This document shows, in pieces, positions 18,866 through 27,475 of a stretch of DNA of 64,000 nt. This DNA comes from Gammaproteobacteria bacterium (lineage in GTDB: Bacteria > Pseudomonadota > Gammaproteobacteria > Pseudomonadales > Azotimanducaceae): positions 228,071 to 292,070 of the forward strand of contig VXLJ01000007.1 in the NCBI GenBank assembly GCA_009841635.1, given 5' to 3'. The translations under genes were made by a program, and so were the position numbers. Positions within the stretch are counted from its first letter, which is position 1; the number at the start of each line of letters is the position of its first letter. The notes beneath the pieces were generated by a model, which worked only from the letters and a program-made list of their open reading frames with translations, was not told the origin of the DNA and did not search any database.

Positions 18866-20521
18866 GTGTCGATGGAACGCGAATCGATGGATTTTGATGT
18901 CGTCATCGTCGGTGGAGGCCCCTCTGGATTAGCTGCTTCTATCCGCCTCATGCAACTCGCAAACGAGGCTGGGACTGAGCTAACGGTATGCCTCGTAGAG
19001 AAAGGCAGTGAGATCGGCGCACACATTCTTTCCGGCGCGGTCTTTTACCCACGCGCGCTGGACGAACTCCTGCCTGATTGGCAAGAGCTTGGCGCGCCAG
19101 TGAACAATCCTGTCACAAAGGACGAATATCACTGCCTGCTCAGCGAAAGCTCAAGCTTCGCCATCCCGCGCTTTTTTATTCCCAAACCCATCCATAACGA
19201 TGGCAATCACACTATTTCGTTGGGAAATCTATGCCGCTGGTTAGGGGAACAGGCAGAAGCTCTCGGCGTCATGACGTTTGCAGGTTTCGCTGCAACCGAG
19301 GTTTTATTCGATGAAAACGATAGAGTTTGCGGTGTTGCAACGGGTGATATGGGGATTGGTAAAAACGGTGAAGAAAAGGCAACGTACCAACCTGGTTACG
19401 AGCTTCGAGCGAAATACACGCTATTCGGTGAAGGATGTCGCGGGCATCTCGGCAAGCAACTTATAAAAAAATACAACTTAGACCAGGAATCCGCAACCCA
19501 ACACTACGCCATTGGCTTAAAAGAGCTGTGGGATGTGCCGCCTGAACGCGCCGACCAAGGCAAAGTTATCCATGCTTTGGGTTGGCCGTTGGGGTTAACG
19601 AAAGCAGCAACGGGCGGGAGTTTCCTATATCACCTTGAAAACAATCAAGTTTCTCTTGGTCTGATTGTGGATTTGTCGTACACCAACCCATACTTGAGCC
19701 CGTTTGAGGAATTTCAGCGGTGGAAGCACCACCCGGTGGTGATTAACGAGATTGCCAATGGCACACGCGTTTCATATGGTGCGCGAGCCATTGTGAAAGG
19801 TGGACTACCAGCGCTACCCAAACTTACAGTACCCGGCGGCGCACTTATCGGAGATGACGCTGGGTTTTTGAATGTGCTAAAGGTTAAAGGTAGCCACACT
19901 GCGATGAAATCAGGCATGTTGGCTGCAGAAGCAACATTTGCAAGCTTGCAGCGAGGCGACGAAGGCACTGAAATTGATTTCCTCGCGAGATTCCAGGATT
20001 CCTGGTTGTTTAAAGAACTGGACGCAACGAAAAATGCTGGTCCCGCGTGGCACAAGATGGGGCTGATTTTTGGTTCAGCCTACTCATTTGTCGAACAGAA
20101 CATCATGCGAGGTACGTCGCTGTTGCGATTGAAGGATCCTCGGCCAGATCATGCGTCCCTACATGAGTTGACCAACGCAACTGAGATCGAGTATCCAAAG
20201 CCTGACGGCATATTGTCATTTGACCGGCTATCAAGCGTGTATCTATCGAATACCAATCATGAGGAAGATCAGCCCTGCCATCTCACGCTCGACGACGATA
20301 CGATACCGGTCGCAGTAAATCTTCCTCGCTATGCAGAACCAGCACAGCGCTACTGCCCTGCTGGCGTTTATGAGATAGTAGAAGAGGAAGCTGGTCCAAG
20401 ATTTCAAATCAATGCGCAAAACTGTGTACATTGCAAGACTTGTGACATCAAAGATCCAGCACAAAATATCACCTGGATTGCACCTGAAGGAGGTGGTGGT
20501 CCGAATTATCCGAACATGTAA
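18866..20521 (+). CDS. electron transfer flavoprotein:ubiquinone oxidoreductase
   Basis: This membrane-associated flavoprotein passes electrons from ETF to ubiquinone. The N-terminal FAD site is 'DVVIVGGGPSGLAASIRL'. The ubiquinone and second FAD regions are represented by 'GEGCRGHLGKQLIKKYNL', 'YHLENNQVSLGLIVDLSYTNP' and 'LIGDDAGFLNVLKVKGSHTAMKSGMLAAE'. The C-terminal [4Fe-4S] domain has 'YCPAGVYE' and 'NCVHCKTCDIKDPAQNI'. The length of 551 residues is usual. The start is a GTG at 18866; an ATG two codons later is also possible. Together with etfAB it forms the complete acyl-CoA dehydrogenase electron route into the respiratory chain. Confidence 0.97.
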   Translation: MSMERESMDFDVVIVGGGPSGLAASIRLMQLANEAGTELTVCLVEKGSEIGAHILSGAVFYPRALDELLPDWQELGAPVNNPVTKDEYHCLLSESSSFAIPRFFIPKPIHNDGNHTISLGNLCRWLGEQAEALGVMTFAGFAATEVLFDENDRVCGVATGDMGIGKNGEEKATYQPGYELRAKYTLFGEGCRGHLGKQLIKKYNLDQESATQHYAIGLKELWDVPPERADQGKVIHALGWPLGLTKAATGGSFLYHLENNQVSLGLIVDLSYTNPYLSPFEEFQRWKHHPVVINEIANGTRVSYGARAIVKGGLPALPKLTVPGGALIGDDAGFLNVLKVKGSHTAMKSGMLAAEATFASLQRGDEGTEIDFLARFQDSWLFKELDATKNAGPAWHKMGLIFGSAYSFVEQNIMRGTSLLRLKDPRPDHASLHELTNATEIEYPKPDGILSFDRLSSVYLSNTNHEEDQPCHLTLDDDTIPVAVNLPRYAEPAQRYCPAGVYEIVEEEAGPRFQINAQNCVHCKTCDIKDPAQNITWIAPEGGGGPNYPNM

Positions 20522-20977
20522 GTAAGTAGCTACGGGTAACTCATTGATCTTTAAATGTATTTAAAATCTCTTTGATTCAAGATTGGCTTGAAATAGCTAA
20601 CAAGTCAATACTTTTTGGTGATTTTCTATTTAGTTAGATTCGCGTACCTAAATCAATCGGCTCTTACCCGACTAGCTCTAATAGTGATCAATATCAGCTT
20701 GAAATAAAAACAAAGTTCGAGGATCTTCTGAGTTAAGAGATTTTTGGTTTCGTGTAGTTATTTGAACTATCTACCGATAAAGCCTGCCCACTTGAAAGGT
20801 ATAGAAATCCCATTCATTTTTCGATATACTTCGAATGCAGCTTGAACGTTTGCAATTGAACTAAGAGTTGCCTTTCTCAAGAAAGAGATTGAATGCTTTT
20901 CGCAAGCGCGACTTTGAGCCAGTCTCAGTTGCACTCTAAGCACAGCATACGCCGCAATTTCGACATGGAGGTGGAAA
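20522..20977. other. AT-rich intergenic region upstream of the autotransporter
   Basis: 456 bases without a credible gene, markedly richer in A+T than the flanks. A possible -10 (TATACT, 20825-20830) lies about 150 bases before the autotransporter start, but no good -35 accompanies it. The length and composition suggest a regulated promoter region. No clear terminator for the upstream gene was found. Confidence 0.4.
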
Positions 20978-23900
20978 TTGAGTCTCGTCAAGACGATCCG
21001 GGCACTTCGCTCACGGAAAACACCCGCGTACAACTCAGCAACCGAGTCGCTGTATAGGTACGACCGTTCTACACGCATCGCGCAATCCCTAAATCATTCG
21101 ATCGGTGCCACCCATCACCGACGGTCCGTTCACCATCTCCTATCACGTTACCTAAAAGGCTTTGGTTCTGCCTGCTTGTTGCTTTTCGCCATGCAGATGC
21201 TGGCGCAAAGCGCATTTGATGACACAACCGCAAGCGTTGATATCGACGAAGACCCGGATAACGTAAGCGCTCATTTGACGAAGATTAGTGCCGAAATAAA
21301 CGAGCGAATCACTGCTTCGGTAGCCGATCAATTTACATTTGAGCTCAATGAAGAAAATAAGAAAAGGTTTGTGTTGAGCGGGAGCGGGGCTAGCCAGGCA
21401 CTAGCGCTCCAAACCGGTTATACATTCGATCACGAGCTAGACGGTCGATTCAATCTAGTCGTCAGATCGAAAAGAACTGCGACTGCGGATGTCAGCCTAT
21501 TGGCAAATTCGTTAACCATCGTAGTCGAGGTCGGCGACATTGACGAAAAACCCTACGTACGGCCCCCATACAAAGCCGCCACGGCCGACAGTCCCGGTCG
21601 AGAGATATTTCTTCAGCAAAACCCGGACACCAAGTCTCACGAGACTTTTTTCCTGTTCGATGTGTTTAGAGATCCCGAAGGTCGATCTCTCAGCTTTAAG
21701 CCATGCCTTGACGATTTCAAAGTAATTGAAACGATTGGTGAAGAAGATCCCGTAGAACGTGGCAATAGCTTAGAGGACGCCAACACAAGCGGCACAGGTA
21801 GAGAGAGACATTGCCTTCCTAACCCAGATCCAGGCGCTGACCCGGACGCCAATGATGTGACTAGAAACGGCAACGTTGTGCATCTTGTAACCGTCGGTCA
21901 ATCGGGTTTTCGTATCAATGCAGTCCAGAGCCCAAGCGCTCAGACAAATACAGCTGTGATTACGTTCCGAGCGTGGGTTGGGACTCCAGTCACTGCAAGC
22001 ATCGATGCTGATGCAATAAATCTCTCGGAAGAGGCAAAGATCACGGTCTATGTCAAGACAGGTGTGAACAATCCACCTCGCTTCGCAGGAGGCGCGACAG
22101 GGTTCAGAGCAACGACTGCCGAAATGACGCTAGACGATGAGCCCCCGAAGCAAATCGGACCGAATCCTTCCTCTTGGGCGAGCGGCACAACAACAACGAT
22201 GTCACCGTGGAATGCGCGAGATGACGACAACCCCGCCGGTGGGCAGGTCCGCGAAAAACTCACATATCGTCTAGAAGGTACTCCTGCAACTCCCGCTTGT
22301 AGGACGGTCAATGGCGTAGAAATGACTGACGCTGTAGCGCTCGGTCAGGGTTGTGCTTGGCTCAACGCGACTGATCTAGCAAACGGTAATGTAGCGGTGT
22401 TTGGCAGGCATATCGACTACGAAGATGCTGCGCGAAATGGTGGCAGTTTCACGATAACACTAGTAGCCACCGATGGCTATCCACAATCTGAAGCTCGCAT
22501 TCCTCTTCAGTTCGACATTACAGATAGAGATGAACCAATCAAATTTGACGGACCGATACGAGAGATAAGCCAATTAGTGGTAGGTCGTTCAGGTCGTTCC
22601 GTCAATTTAAACAATTACTTTGAGGACCCTGACGGCACACCAATCACCTTCGACGTACTATCGACCTCCCCAACCATCGTAAGCGCAACGCTAAATGGTT
22701 CGATTCTCACAGTAAACGCAGTAGGCGGCGTAGGCACTGCCGAAATTGTGGTTACGGCAATTGCTGCCGCACCAAGTAGTGAAAGACGCGCAACAAACGT
22801 TCGTGTGCAGGTGCGAGCAACTAATAGTCCGCCCTCATTCGGTGGCAACGCTATATCTGTGGCCGCTCCTACACCCGTTCCTGAAACTGAAACTGCTGGT
22901 TATGTAATCCGCGTTCCCGCCTTGAGTTACATCGATCCGGATGGCGATACGGTCACAGCACGTGTGATAAATAGCAGCTTGTTCGAAGCAGTCGTCGATC
23001 CCAAAGTTGGCGAAACAAAATATGGTGGTGAAGTCGGCTTAAGACTGATAGGGCGTTTAGACTATGAGACCAACCGCCAACACGTCGTTCAAGTCCAACT
23101 CAACGATGGGTGGGACAACAGCTTAAACACCATCGGCGTCGTGGTGCTGATTGCCGACGTCAACGAACCACCACGCATTGCGACAAACCCGGACAATACG
23201 AATCGCGCCATACCCGATCAGACGGTTTCAATCAACCAGACGAATTCAATAAATGCTCTAACCTATTTCGTAGACCCGGATGGCGGTCGACTTTTAATCA
23301 CTGCCGCTACAACACCGGTAAATTCGCCTTACGTAACCGTCACAGTGGTTGGACAGGGCACCGTTCAGTTTACCGGCATTCAAGCGACAGACACGACGCC
23401 TGTGACGGTCACAGTCACGGCGCAAGATACTGCGGGTCTGTCTGTTCAGCATACGTTCCGAATTTTTGTGAGCGCTAATACACCGCCGCGCCTGATTCGT
23501 CCGTTACCTAATATCGAGATTGTTCAGTCCGGCGGGGCACACACGATCTCTCTCATTGGTGTTTTCACTGACCCTGACGTCGGTGACAGCATCGCGCGCT
23601 ATGAAGAAAGAGTCGATGAAGGCAATGATCTTGTAGTTGCGCTTATTCAAAATGAAACCGACCTTGTCATCATCCCGCGCGCCGAAGGATCAGTGAAGAT
23701 CACCATTGTCGCGGTCGATACTAGAGGTGGTCGTACTGAAACTTCCTTCGTTGTTCAAGTTCTAGGTAATACAGCGCCCGTTCTCGATCAACCAGTCCCT
23801 TCGCTGAACATGCGGCCAAACTCGAACGAAACCATTGTTCTTACCGAATACTTCAGTGATCCGGATGGCGACACATTGACGTTTGTGGCATCCTCAAACA

Positions 23901-26900
23901 CAAACTCAGTTGCCGAAACCGTCGTTTCGATTAACCAGCTTTTCGTTACTGCTAAGCAACGTGGCACTGCGCGAATTACAGTGACTGCGACAGACCCTGA
24001 CGGCGAAGCCATACAACACTCTTTTTTAGTTTCAGTCATCAATGAAATCCCAGAACTGGAAGGTGAAATCACGCTGGAATTGGCCTATCGAGGAGACACG
24101 CACACCGTCGACATAGCAGGGAACTTCTCTGATGCTGATGGTGACCCCCTAACGTACACTGTGACCAGTAGCGATACCGATGTCGCGACAGCGAGTCTAG
24201 TGGGTTCTAATTTGACAGTGACGGCTGTGGGCCTAGGAACTAGCTCCATCGTGATTACCGCGACGGACCCCTACGGCGCACCAGCTGAGGGCACTGTTGA
24301 AGTCACAATCGAGAACCAAATACCACAGGTCGCGATGGAAATCATGGACCATCAGACCTATCGACAAACGCCAATCACGATTGATCTCAGTCAGGTTTTT
24401 TCAGACCCTGACGGCGACGACTTGACGTTTACGGCATCGGTCAGCAACACCGACACTGCTACTGCAATGGTCTCCGGCTCTATGCTAACCGTGAACGGGT
24501 TAACGCTCGGCATGGTGGACGTAAGAGTAACTGCACAAGACGCCTACGAAGGCTATGCGACTGAGGAGTTCAAGGTAACGATCCTCAACCGCGACCCGAT
24601 AACAATCGCTGCCATCGAAGACATTACAACGGTTCGAGGCGTAGACCATACAGTCGATTTGAGTTCGGTATTCGCTGATGAAGATGGCGATGAGTTGACA
24701 TTCGAAGTGACGGTTTCAGCTAGTCAATATGCAACAGCGACCATTAACGGTAGTACATTAGTGTTTAGAGGCATTGGTGTTGGCCAAGCGATCATTCGCG
24801 TCATCGCTATGGATGCACCGGCAACCGGCCAAGCAGCGTCAACGAGCTTCAGGATTACCGTTGAAAACCAAGCACCGGTCGTCGTGCAAGAAATTGACGA
24901 CGCAGAAACGCACCGCTTAGGTGTAGTCTTAGTCGATCTCGCTGATGTGTTTAACGATCCAGATGGCGACCCTCTGACCTATACGGCGCGAGCTGAAGAC
25001 GGTAGCGTGGCGCTAGTACGCGTAAACGGAGCACAGTTAAGCGTTACCGGCCGTGCTGTCGACACTACAACGATTACGGTCACCGCTCGCGATGAATTCC
25101 GTGCGTCTGTTTCGACAACATTTGAAATCACGGTTGAGAACCGCGCACCGACCGTTGCGAACGCACCATTGAACGTAACCGTGAACCGAACAGAAATGCC
25201 GACGATCGATATATCTTCGGTGTTCGATGACGAGGACAATGACCGCCTCGAGATCGAAGTTCAATCGTCTAATCCCTCGGTAGCAACTGCAACGCTTCGC
25301 ACGCTGTCGTTGACGATACAACCGTTGACCTTAGGTTCAACCGAAATTTCCATCACGGCCACCGACCCGTATGACGCTTCAGTCTCTACGATGTTCAGTG
25401 TTGAGGTAGAAAACATCGCACCGAAGGTTGCTATTCCCCTCGCAAACGTGACGACGAATCGTCAAGAAACCGTCCAAATTAATATCGGTTCGGTATTTGT
25501 CGACGACGATGGTGACGACTTGACGCTCTCTGCTGAATCTGCAAATCCAGATCTAGTTACCGTATCGGTGGCTGATACGCAGCTTACGTTGATGGGCATG
25601 AATCTTGGGACGACCACCATTACCGTGACAGGCACGGATACGCCGGGTGCGAGTGCTTCCACCATGTTCAACGTAACTGTGGAGAACCTCGCGCCGACTA
25701 TTGGCTCCACGATCGAGCCGTTCCAGCTTGAGGTGGGTGGCGACGCGGTTTCACGAGACGTAACTGGTGCGTTCGCGGACGACGGACCAGAAACCCTTGT
25801 CATTAGCGTTGAAAGCCTCAATGAAGCGATCGCGACTGCTTCTATTCAAGGCACAACCATCACGGTCATGCCAGTATCGAAAGGTCTCACATCTCTTCAA
25901 GTCACGGCTACGGACGCTCAGAATGCGACGGTCGCGCAGTCTGTTCCCGTAAGCGTTTCGGAAGAGGAACTGAAGAAAGTCGCTACGACTGCACTCGCGA
26001 GTTTTTCAAGAGCCGTCCTAAACAGCCTATCGTCAACGGTTGGTGCACGACTAATGGCCGATGCTGACGGCTTGTACTCACCAATGATGAGCTATAGTCT
26101 CGATGATTTCGCACCGGCTAATGACCATGTGGTAGCGGTTCACGCCATTGCCGACGACTCACCATTTGCTTTGTCCAGTGATGACGGTTGGTCACCCAAC
26201 CTGCGGCACGCGACAGCTTACGACGGCCGGTCACAAGGCAACAGCATCGCAAATCTCCTTGACCGTGGCTTTGCTCTAAAACTTGCTGCAGCAGGTGATC
26301 CAAACTTTTGGAGCGTTTGGGGTGGTATTGATCGGCAATCGTTCGAAGGTGCGAATCATGAAGGCAACGTCAGTTCCTTCTACTTCGGTGGCGACATGAC
26401 GATTCGCGGTCAGTGGACTTTGGGTCTAGCAGTTGGACGTAATACTGGTGAAGCAGACTACACGTTCGGCACCGCAACGCAGACGATGGAGAATGAGCTT
26501 ACCAGCATTCTTCCCTATGCTCGAATGAGCCCATCCGACCGTACAACGGTATATGGCGCCGTCGGTTTTGGTAGCGGCTCGCTTGAAACCACTGTGATCG
26601 GACAAGAAAACGCCATAGCTGACCTTAAAGGTACGTTAGGTATTTTCGGTGGACGTCAGGTCGTCTACACCATGATGAATGGACTGAATCTGGCCGTTGT
26701 CGGCGATTACGGTTTTGCGAATCTCGAAACCGATGAAGGTGGCTCTTCAGCCCATAACCTAGTTGCCGAAGTCAGTCGATTCCGTGGTGGCTTGGAAACC
26801 TCGCTCAATATGGCAATGGGTGCAGACGGCTCGTTTGTGCCATTCGTCACGGTGGGATTCCGAGCGGATAGCGGTGACGGTGATGCCGATTCTGGCGTTG

Positions 26901-27415
26901 AAATCGCAGGTGGTCTAAGAATCACAAATCCGGTTTTCTCGCTTGACGCAAATTTCCGCACGCTCGCGACGTATGGCGTAGATGATTACAGCGAAAGCGG
27001 TTTCAGCATCATGGCGGTCCTTAATCCCAGTGCTGGCGCTACCGGTTTGAGCGTATCACTTGCTCCGAGCTGGGGCGCAAATACGACTAGCACCAATGCT
27101 CTTTGGCATGATGATTACCAAGCAAACGGCATCTCAAATCTAGCCAATTGGGGTTTAGAGACGAGCGAATCTATGAAGCTAGATTCGACCCTAGGTTATG
27201 GCTTCTTCGTGTATGACCAACGCTTCGTGTTTACGCCATTCATCGACGTGCAAACGGGTTACTCTAATTTGTACGATCTCAGCCTGGGCATGAAGCTCAT
27301 TGAGAGCGAACGCACGCGGAACAACCTCGGCATCAATTTGAAGATTGGTCAAGACAGTCAAGCTTCTGGCACACAAGAAGAAACCGTTCGACTTGACGCA
27401 CGCATGAACTTCTAA
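20978..27415 (+). CDS. giant cadherin/Ig-repeat autotransporter (type Va-like adhesin)
   Basis: This is a 2145-residue surface protein. The start is a TTG preceded by GGAGG at 20967-20971, an excellent ribosome-binding site. An extended basic N-region of about 60 residues precedes the hydrophobic core 'GFGSACLLLFAMQMLA' and a likely cleavage near residue 79. After an N-terminal region (80-530) come roughly twelve tandem domains with a period of about 91 residues. Each begins with an Asp-rich loop of the form D-x-D-G-D-x-L-T (near residues 549, 653, 767, 865, 962, 1052, 1143, 1235, 1327, 1418, 1509, 1601) and ends with a 'F-x-V-T-V-x-N-x-x-P' strand. This is typical of calcium-binding cadherin-like or Ig-like folds. 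A helical linker (about 1665-1690, 'LASFSRAVLNSLSSTVGARL') leads to a C-terminal beta-barrel of about 390 residues ending '...LDARMNF', with the terminal Phe expected for BamA recognition. A stand-alone gene with its own terminator; likely role adhesion or aggregation. Confidence 0.9.
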   Translation: MSLVKTIRALRSRKTPAYNSATESLYRYDRSTRIAQSLNHSIGATHHRRSVHHLLSRYLKGFGSACLLLFAMQMLAQSAFDDTTASVDIDEDPDNVSAHLTKISAEINERITASVADQFTFELNEENKKRFVLSGSGASQALALQTGYTFDHELDGRFNLVVRSKRTATADVSLLANSLTIVVEVGDIDEKPYVRPPYKAATADSPGREIFLQQNPDTKSHETFFLFDVFRDPEGRSLSFKPCLDDFKVIETIGEEDPVERGNSLEDANTSGTGRERHCLPNPDPGADPDANDVTRNGNVVHLVTVGQSGFRINAVQSPSAQTNTAVITFRAWVGTPVTASIDADAINLSEEAKITVYVKTGVNNPPRFAGGATGFRATTAEMTLDDEPPKQIGPNPSSWASGTTTTMSPWNARDDDNPAGGQVREKLTYRLEGTPATPACRTVNGVEMTDAVALGQGCAWLNATDLANGNVAVFGRHIDYEDAARNGGSFTITLVATDGYPQSEARIPLQFDITDRDEPIKFDGPIREISQLVVGRSGRSVNLNNYFEDPDGTPITFDVLSTSPTIVSATLNGSILTVNAVGGVGTAEIVVTAIAAAPSSERRATNVRVQVRATNSPPSFGGNAISVAAPTPVPETETAGYVIRVPALSYIDPDGDTVTARVINSSLFEAVVDPKVGETKYGGEVGLRLIGRLDYETNRQHVVQVQLNDGWDNSLNTIGVVVLIADVNEPPRIATNPDNTNRAIPDQTVSINQTNSINALTYFVDPDGGRLLITAATTPVNSPYVTVTVVGQGTVQFTGIQATDTTPVTVTVTAQDTAGLSVQHTFRIFVSANTPPRLIRPLPNIEIVQSGGAHTISLIGVFTDPDVGDSIARYEERVDEGNDLVVALIQNETDLVIIPRAEGSVKITIVAVDTRGGRTETSFVVQVLGNTAPVLDQPVPSLNMRPNSNETIVLTEYFSDPDGDTLTFVASSNTNSVAETVVSINQLFVTAKQRGTARITVTATDPDGEAIQHSFLVSVINEIPELEGEITLELAYRGDTHTVDIAGNFSDADGDPLTYTVTSSDTDVATASLVGSNLTVTAVGLGTSSIVITATDPYGAPAEGTVEVTIENQIPQVAMEIMDHQTYRQTPITIDLSQVFSDPDGDDLTFTASVSNTDTATAMVSGSMLTVNGLTLGMVDVRVTAQDAYEGYATEEFKVTILNRDPITIAAIEDITTVRGVDHTVDLSSVFADEDGDELTFEVTVSASQYATATINGSTLVFRGIGVGQAIIRVIAMDAPATGQAASTSFRITVENQAPVVVQEIDDAETHRLGVVLVDLADVFNDPDGDPLTYTARAEDGSVALVRVNGAQLSVTGRAVDTTTITVTARDEFRASVSTTFEITVENRAPTVANAPLNVTVNRTEMPTIDISSVFDDEDNDRLEIEVQSSNPSVATATLRTLSLTIQPLTLGSTEISITATDPYDASVSTMFSVEVENIAPKVAIPLANVTTNRQETVQINIGSVFVDDDGDDLTLSAESANPDLVTVSVADTQLTLMGMNLGTTTITVTGTDTPGASASTMFNVTVENLAPTIGSTIEPFQLEVGGDAVSRDVTGAFADDGPETLVISVESLNEAIATASIQGTTITVMPVSKGLTSLQVTATDAQNATVAQSVPVSVSEEELKKVATTALASFSRAVLNSLSSTVGARLMADADGLYSPMMSYSLDDFAPANDHVVAVHAIADDSPFALSSDDGWSPNLRHATAYDGRSQGNSIANLLDRGFALKLAAAGDPNFWSVWGGIDRQSFEGANHEGNVSSFYFGGDMTIRGQWTLGLAVGRNTGEADYTFGTATQTMENELTSILPYARMSPSDRTTVYGAVGFGSGSLETTVIGQENAIADLKGTLGIFGGRQVVYTMMNGLNLAVVGDYGFANLETDEGGSSAHNLVAEVSRFRGGLETSLNMAMGADGSFVPFVTVGFRADSGDGDADSGVEIAGGLRITNPVFSLDANFRTLATYGVDDYSESGFSIMAVLNPSAGATGLSVSLAPSWGANTTSTNALWHDDYQANGISNLANWGLETSESMKLDSTLGYGFFVYDQRFVFTPFIDVQTGYSNLYDLSLGMKLIESERTRNNLGINLKIGQDSQASGTQEETVRLDARMNF

Positions 27416-27442
27416 ACGTTCAACTCTACTGCAAACTACACG

Positions 27443-27475
27443 GCGGCGTACACAGGTGTGTACGCCGCTTTTTTT
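27443..27475 (+). terminator. strong intrinsic terminator of the autotransporter gene
   Basis: GCGGCGTACACA (27443-27454) and TGTGTACGCCGC (27457-27468) are perfectly complementary 12-base arms around GG (in practice an 11-bp stem with an AGGT loop). They are followed by seven T residues. It starts 28 bases after the stop codon. Confidence 0.95.

Follow-up and report, generated by a model that had tools for sequence, protein, structure and literature searches.

Classical type Va autotransporters (PF03797) combine a Sec-type N-terminus, a passenger that is usually a β-helix, an α-helical linker and a C-terminal barrel with a terminal aromatic residue. Long extenders made of calcium-loop β-sandwich repeats are known from the RTX adhesins and BapP of Pseudoalteromonas, which are tied to type I secretion (PMC7493085, PMC12153261); the BapP repeats are of the Big_9 type and measure 90–94 residues (PMC12153261). 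A review of adhesins stiffened by calcium states that autotransporters manage without it (PMC7493085). The Gram-positive protein SraP has a lectin head and tandem cadherin-like modules with one calcium site per module (PDB 4m00, 4m03; PMC4047093), and the inverse autotransporters intimin and invasin (type Ve) unite an immunoglobulin (Ig)-like passenger and an outer-membrane barrel in one chain. Features of several of these systems meet in a single gene encoding 2145 residues in the 64,000-nucleotide stretch analysed here (the window; contig VXLJ01000007.1, positions 228,071 to 292,070) of a gammaproteobacterium of the family Azotimanducaceae. Its product shares a PF03797-related barrel and the terminal aromatic residue with the type Va proteins, and its putative Sec-type N-terminus and predicted α-linker would also fit them, whereas the passenger is Ig/cadherin-like and the barrel is about 90–105 residues longer. 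Unlike the RTX adhesins and BapP, it has a putative Sec-type signal, a C-terminal barrel and no adjacent type I secretion system (T1SS) gene. The barrel forms the last 380 residues, the reverse of the type Ve domain order; the protein is not an inverse autotransporter.

We read this gene as coding for a type V (autotransporter-like) cell-surface adhesin with its own barrel, a calcium-stiffened repeat rod and a head, whose translation would be held by a CsrA-type leader hairpin, and we put the probability of this reading at roughly 0.66. Judged by its sequence, the protein would work like a type Va autotransporter with a barrel related to that family. We infer that an extended signal peptide directs the chain to the Sec pathway, that the C-terminal barrel inserts into the outer membrane and that the passenger exits through it in C-to-N direction, the C-terminal repeats leading. 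Outside the cell, the repeats would form a rod of approx. 50 nm if each Ig domain adds about 4 nm, and calcium bound at the repeat junctions, about one ion for each repeat, would stiffen it. The rod would keep the N-terminal head away from the cell, and the head may bind a surface or a neighbour. The leader hairpin would limit translation by presenting the Shine-Dalgarno (SD) sequence GGAG in its loop and hiding the UUG start codon in its stem, and the adhesin would be made once CsrA is titrated away.

The repeats are the best defined part of the protein. Twelve F/Y-x-D-x-D/G loops with their F/Y at positions 548 to 1599 follow each other at spacings of 103, 113, 99, 96, 91, 91, 91, 93, 91, 91 and 92 residues. 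The first-pass annotation, which had been made from the letters of the window, had proposed about twelve 91-residue repeats. Twelve loops do occur, but a length of 91–93 residues holds only for the last eight repeats, the other four being longer. Pfam assigns the repeats to Big_9 (8 stretches, 102 bits), Cadherin_4 and Big_2. From the window protein and two orthologues (three proteins), 21 consecutive repeat pairs were aligned, and this alignment yielded a two-repeat model of tandem Ig/cadherin-like domains with a predicted local distance difference test (pLDDT) score of 96 and a predicted TM-score (pTM) of 0.78. Its closest PDB match was SraP 4m00 (Foldseek E 4e-9, TMq 0.80), and VIA-align superimposed residues 1–182 of the model on chain residues 573–749 (Z 10.8, 2.5 Å over 172 residues). 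Ig, cadherin, dystroglycan and S-layer (SbsC) structures matched at similar Z because the fold is common.

The ligand positions are informative beyond the fold. The third calcium ion of SraP is held by Asp661, Asp690, Asn691 and Asp734 (PMC4047093). In a profile-to-sequence alignment, Asp661, Asp690 and Asp734 of SraP fall on N92, D122 and D167 of the repeat pair, and Asp645 falls on D76. All of these belong to the sets N1/N92, D31/D122 and D76/D167, which are invariant over the 21 repeat pairs of the three proteins. Asn691 aligns with the neighbour of D122, which is not invariant, and the first ligand is Asp in SraP and Asn in the window repeats. As the fold matches the SraP modules and the ligands fall on invariant Asn and Asp residues, the view that the repeats form an Ig/cadherin-like stalk of the calcium type is well supported by model and alignment, and the cadherin/Ig fold assigned to them previously stands. 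Calcium binding by the repeats is likely. The number of repeats differs among orthologues (frames of 1786 versus 2165 residues), the G007 orthologue having about four repeats fewer.

The barrel of the window protein scores 23.0 bits with PF03797, for which the cut-off is 26 bits. This cut-off is passed by the orthologues G071 (26.4 bits), G007 and G075 (27.8 with neighbours), and the best score in the genus, orthologues and paralogues included, is 40 bits. All 92 family sequences that reach the last alignment column end in an aromatic residue (71 in F, 21 in W). Since PF03797 is above cut-off in relatives and the C-terminus is F or W, the domain is taken to be an outer-membrane, autotransporter-related barrel, in agreement with the first-pass annotation; by orthology, it is related to PF03797.

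The same annotation had expected a classical 12-strand barrel, and this expectation was not supported. An AlphaFold model of linker and barrel from a three-row alignment reached a pLDDT of 28 and was discarded, and the domain exceeds its classical 12-strand relatives by the margin given above. In the E. coli K-12 autotransporters Ag43, YfaL, YpjA and YcgV, which served as yardsticks, the PF03797 match stops about 22 residues before the C-terminus. Judged from match coordinates, about 170 residues follow PF03797 position 212 in the window barrel versus about 65 in the yardsticks. In a manual assignment, the classical twelve strands occupy residues 1778–2016, and six more strand-like stretches extend up to residue 2145. 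A dynamic-programme strand predictor returned the same 18 strands for the window barrel but 16 for Ag43. At one penalty setting it was correct for OmpC, FadL and OmpA and gave 20 strands for LamB; another setting was unstable. As it over-predicts Ag43 and depends on the setting, its count was not taken as proof. In a covariation alignment of 124 non-redundant family barrels (the family has at least 124; effective number of sequences 97), for which only the summed ladder test was informative, the antiparallel register of adjacent strands showed stronger covariation than the parallel one (2.85 versus 2.23, p 0.004), with no antiparallel lead at other short strand distances. Closure of strands 1–12 and of strands 1–18 was at background in both cases. 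Thus, the antiparallel signal speaks for the overall strand assignment but not for closure of the barrel. Judged by length and strand mapping, the number of strands probably exceeds 12; 18 is a reasoned guess. A wider proposal can be built on this: an enlarged type V translocator of about 18 strands special to this bacterial family, with a 12-strand autotransporter-like core and six later strands, might export calcium-folded Ig repeats, a cargo to which a normal 12-strand pore may be poorly suited, the window orthologue being switched by a CsrA hairpin over its start codon. We regard this proposal as doubtful.

The N-terminus begins with 62 residues containing 12 K/R, 5 H and 2 D/E, followed by a short hydrophobic core of the Sec type; the long basic N-region described before is thus present. 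In the four aligned orthologues the frame likewise stays open through a similarly long N-region of non-conserved sequence, for which reason the region is probably translated. The TTG start is supported by GGAGGTGGAAATTG, which is identical in the four other orthologues. Residues 80–519 form the head, which is probably disulphide-bonded; it contains four cysteines that all four aligned orthologues share. No Pfam family matched these residues. The helix predicted ahead of the barrel appears with a pLDDT under 40 in the AlphaFold model.

In the CsrA/RsmA-repressed leaders of the glgC and hcnA type, GGA stands in a hairpin loop over the SD sequence (PMC7652899). The candidate site in the leader of the window gene resembles them, and four orthologues add a second site upstream, whereas the start codon is predicted to be paired inside the same hairpin. 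Mean pairwise DNA identity among the five orthologues is 0.5–0.91 in the leader, with its peak near the SD sequence, versus about 0.3 in the coding sequence that follows. In all five, the predicted hairpin pairs CAAUUUC with GAAAUUG, which leaves GGAG in the loop and encloses UUG in the stem. The loop of the window hairpin has an unpaired probability of about 1; the loop of the relatives is AGGAG. Most of the ligands selected by CsrA have loops of six bases with AC and GU as closing bases (PMC7652899). Leader block 1 of the four relatives carries UCANGGAGGA, a perfect CsrA-type site, which the window copy has lost (CAAGAAAGAG). The hairpin sequence has exactly five occurrences in 18 genomes of the genus, all of them in front of this gene, and block 1, with up to three mismatches allowed, is likewise found only there. 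The orthologues L012 and L013 retain the leader, though electron-transfer flavoprotein:ubiquinone oxidoreductase (ETF-QO), the upstream neighbour of the window gene, was not found in their examined upstream flanks. The genome encodes csrA (PF02599, 78.1 bits) beside two tRNAs. On these grounds, the hairpin is most likely a CsrA (RsmA) site. The conserved upstream stretch might also have been an N-terminal extension of the protein, but a one-base insertion in the window copy breaks the frame there, and this reading was rejected. As a separate observation, the four relatives carry TATACTTNAA..CGCATTTCGGC about 75–110 nucleotides ahead of block 1, resembling a common promoter −10 element plus transcript start; this block is degenerate in the window copy (20700–20860).

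Several results weigh against the adhesin reading as a whole. The window barrel falls 3 bits short of the PF03797 cut-off and gave the poor AlphaFold model mentioned above; hhalign against the four E. coli K-12 autotransporter barrels aligned only 38 columns at probability 4; and no ligand-binding fold was identified in the head. A PDB profile search with the barrel also returned no autotransporter, the best match being OmpX at E 0.21. For the leader, the hairpin of the four relatives (ACAGGAGGU) has a five-base loop, one base short of the CsrA consensus, and the stem is longer than in most selected CsrA ligands (PMC7652899). Two-sided covariation was absent from the leader helices of the five sequences, in which the hairpin stem is invariant, and CsrA-type motifs over the window occur at chance frequency (7 versus 7.0 expected). 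At z 0.4, the window leader is predicted to fold no more stably than its shuffles (L012, z −2.2).

A serious competitor, to which we give somewhat less than even odds, is that the leader is not a CsrA target and instead acts as a thermosensor, is recognised by a different RNA-binding protein or is just a passive hairpin. The perfect stem that includes the start codon would suit such a role, with predicted energies between −7.6 and −7.9 kcal/mol at 37°C, of about −10 kcal/mol at 28°C and about −14 kcal/mol at 10°C, as would the loop base missing from the CsrA motif in four of the five hairpins. Rfam recognised no family in the leader, and its sole sub-threshold match, to a plant virus, was judged to be chance. 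CsrA is favoured over these possibilities by the constant display of GGAG in a loop with AC..GU closing, by UCANGGAGGA about 80 nucleotides upstream of the hairpin in four of the five orthologues, a second perfect motif that varies at its N, and by the csrA gene.

An extender adhesin with calcium-independent repeats, the Asp loops being structural remnants, is unlikely. It would accord with the statement in the review that calcium is not required to make autotransporter adhesins rigid (PMC7493085). Moreover, the loops are not perfect throughout: the first loop Asp is present in all twelve window repeats and the later TxxD Asp in eleven, the first repeat lacking it, and the full D-x-D-G/N-D loop is kept by seven of the eight regular repeats, whereas the final one reads FADDGPE. 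Against such remnants stand the three invariant Asn/Asp sets at the calcium-binding positions of SraP. Similarly improbable is a plain outer-membrane anchor or porin-like barrel with the Ig repeats remaining periplasmic and no autotransport: the top Pfam match of the window barrel is OMP_b-brl (27.4 bits, slightly below its cut-off) and its length is unusual for an autotransporter, but the PF03797 scores of family members, the varying repeat number and exchanged passengers typical of surface proteins, a rod too long for the periplasm and the predicted helix ahead of the barrel speak for an autotransporter-like adhesin.

If the adhesin reading is correct, the family would be a counter-example to calcium-free autotransporters, as it would combine a C-terminal barrel with a calcium rod. 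A barrel of more than 12 strands would break the rule of a 12-strand pore in the classical autotransporter and would provide a direct test of whether pore size limits the range of exportable folds. Thanks to the conserved leader, a short RNA would be enough to test the regulation.

The features of the locus are collected in the table. At the level of the gene, the first-pass annotation proved accurate: frame, length and terminal Phe are as described, the 456-bp upstream gap is AT-rich (GC 0.375 versus 0.51 for the window), a strong terminator follows and the gene stands alone. All eight nearby genes have housekeeping functions unrelated to the adhesin gene; besides ETF-QO, they include a Mur ligase gene and, downstream on the opposite strand, genes for DUF1285 and a MoaA-like radical SAM protein. 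ETF-QO adjoins three of the five orthologues (window, G007, G071). A type I exporter gene was not among the eight nearby genes, T1SS genes elsewhere in the genome not having been searched. NCBIfam gave no match, and no relative was found in the plasmid records searched.

Table. Features of the adhesin locus (positions in the window; all on the + strand).
Feature	Position	Strand	Basis
ETF-QO, upstream neighbour	18866..20521	+	Pfam PF05187, PF21162; synteny
Conserved 5′ leader (~120 nt), predicted hairpins	20862..20980	+	5-orthologue alignment
Leader block 1; window copy CAAGAAAGAG	20868..20896	+	
Hairpin CAAUUUC-G-AC-AUGGAG-GU-G-GAAAUUG	20955..20980	+	predicted fold
ACAUGGAGGU, exact match to [AU]CANGGANG[AU], six-base loop AUGGAG	20963..20972	+	
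Gene, 2145 residues	20978..27415	+	open reading frame
Extended signal peptide: basic N-region (residues 1–62), hydrophobic core, likely cleavage near ..LAQSA	20978..21211	+	sequence, by eye
N-terminal head, residues 80–519, four Cys (FKxC, HC, xCRT, GCAWL)	21215..22534	+	orthologue alignment
Twelve Ig/cadherin-like repeats, F-x-D-x-D/G loops	22535..25960	+	
Eight regular repeats of 91–93 residues	23768..25960	+	
Predicted α-helical linker EEELKKVATTALASFSRAVLNSLSSTVGARLM ahead of barrel	25961..26056	+	sequence; helix in low-confidence model
C-terminal β-barrel domain ending in Phe	26264..27412	+	
Stretch matching PF03797 positions 17–212, 23.0 bits	26345..26902	+	
Additional C-terminal barrel segment, candidate strands 13–18, missing from classical autotransporters	27044..27412	+	
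Intrinsic terminator, 12-pair stem then TTTTTT	27442..27475	+	

The barrel is not restricted to this gene. A family profile of 395 columns was searched against 206 genomes of the bacterial family of the host, 390 of the order and 398 of the phylum. Relatives, most of them full length, were present in 54 of the 206 family genomes and in 10 of 37 genera. In the order and phylum genomes, nearly all matches cover the first third only, the exception being two genomes of one genus that match profile positions 27–259. Relatives outside the family mostly end at 270–305 profile-equivalents and those of the two-genome genus at about 342, versus 395 in the host family. Within the genomes searched, the full-length barrel family is confined to one bacterial family. 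Across the 54 genomes, the barrel is joined to Ig-like, Calx-beta and other passengers, often as paralogues; the architecture is not an isolated case. Five orthologues, the window gene included, occur among the 18 genomes of the genus, with barrel identities of 60–64%. In the host genome itself, the window gene has at least five relatives: a tandem pair of 2285 and 1684 residues, proteins of 1853 and 705 residues and one on contig C53. Neither these paralogues nor the conserved leader had been noted in the first-pass annotation.

Some members of the family deserve mention in their own right. The tandem paralogues of 2285 and 1684 residues carry the same barrel (L009:1689-14017, host contig C17), and in a relative of the same genus four paralogues in mixed orientation lie on about 36 kb of one contig (L030-L032, G040:C5:774000-824000). 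A single-contig genome of another genus in the same bacterial family contains an uninterrupted frame of 20,170 residues (L256-L259, G191:C1:3696266-3756775, − strand) with a signal-like N-terminus, Calx-beta repeats of about 114 residues and the same barrel at its C-terminal end, its length being that of the repeat assembly as deposited. A 3000-residue piece of this protein contains 19 Calx-beta repeats (PF03160, 699 bits). BigE, with 10,429 residues, has been called the largest known autotransporter (PMC3419190); the 20,170-residue frame is about twice as long. Further very long frames of 9066, 8132, 7745, 6651 and 5420 residues with the same barrel are found on G082:C1 and G191:C1.

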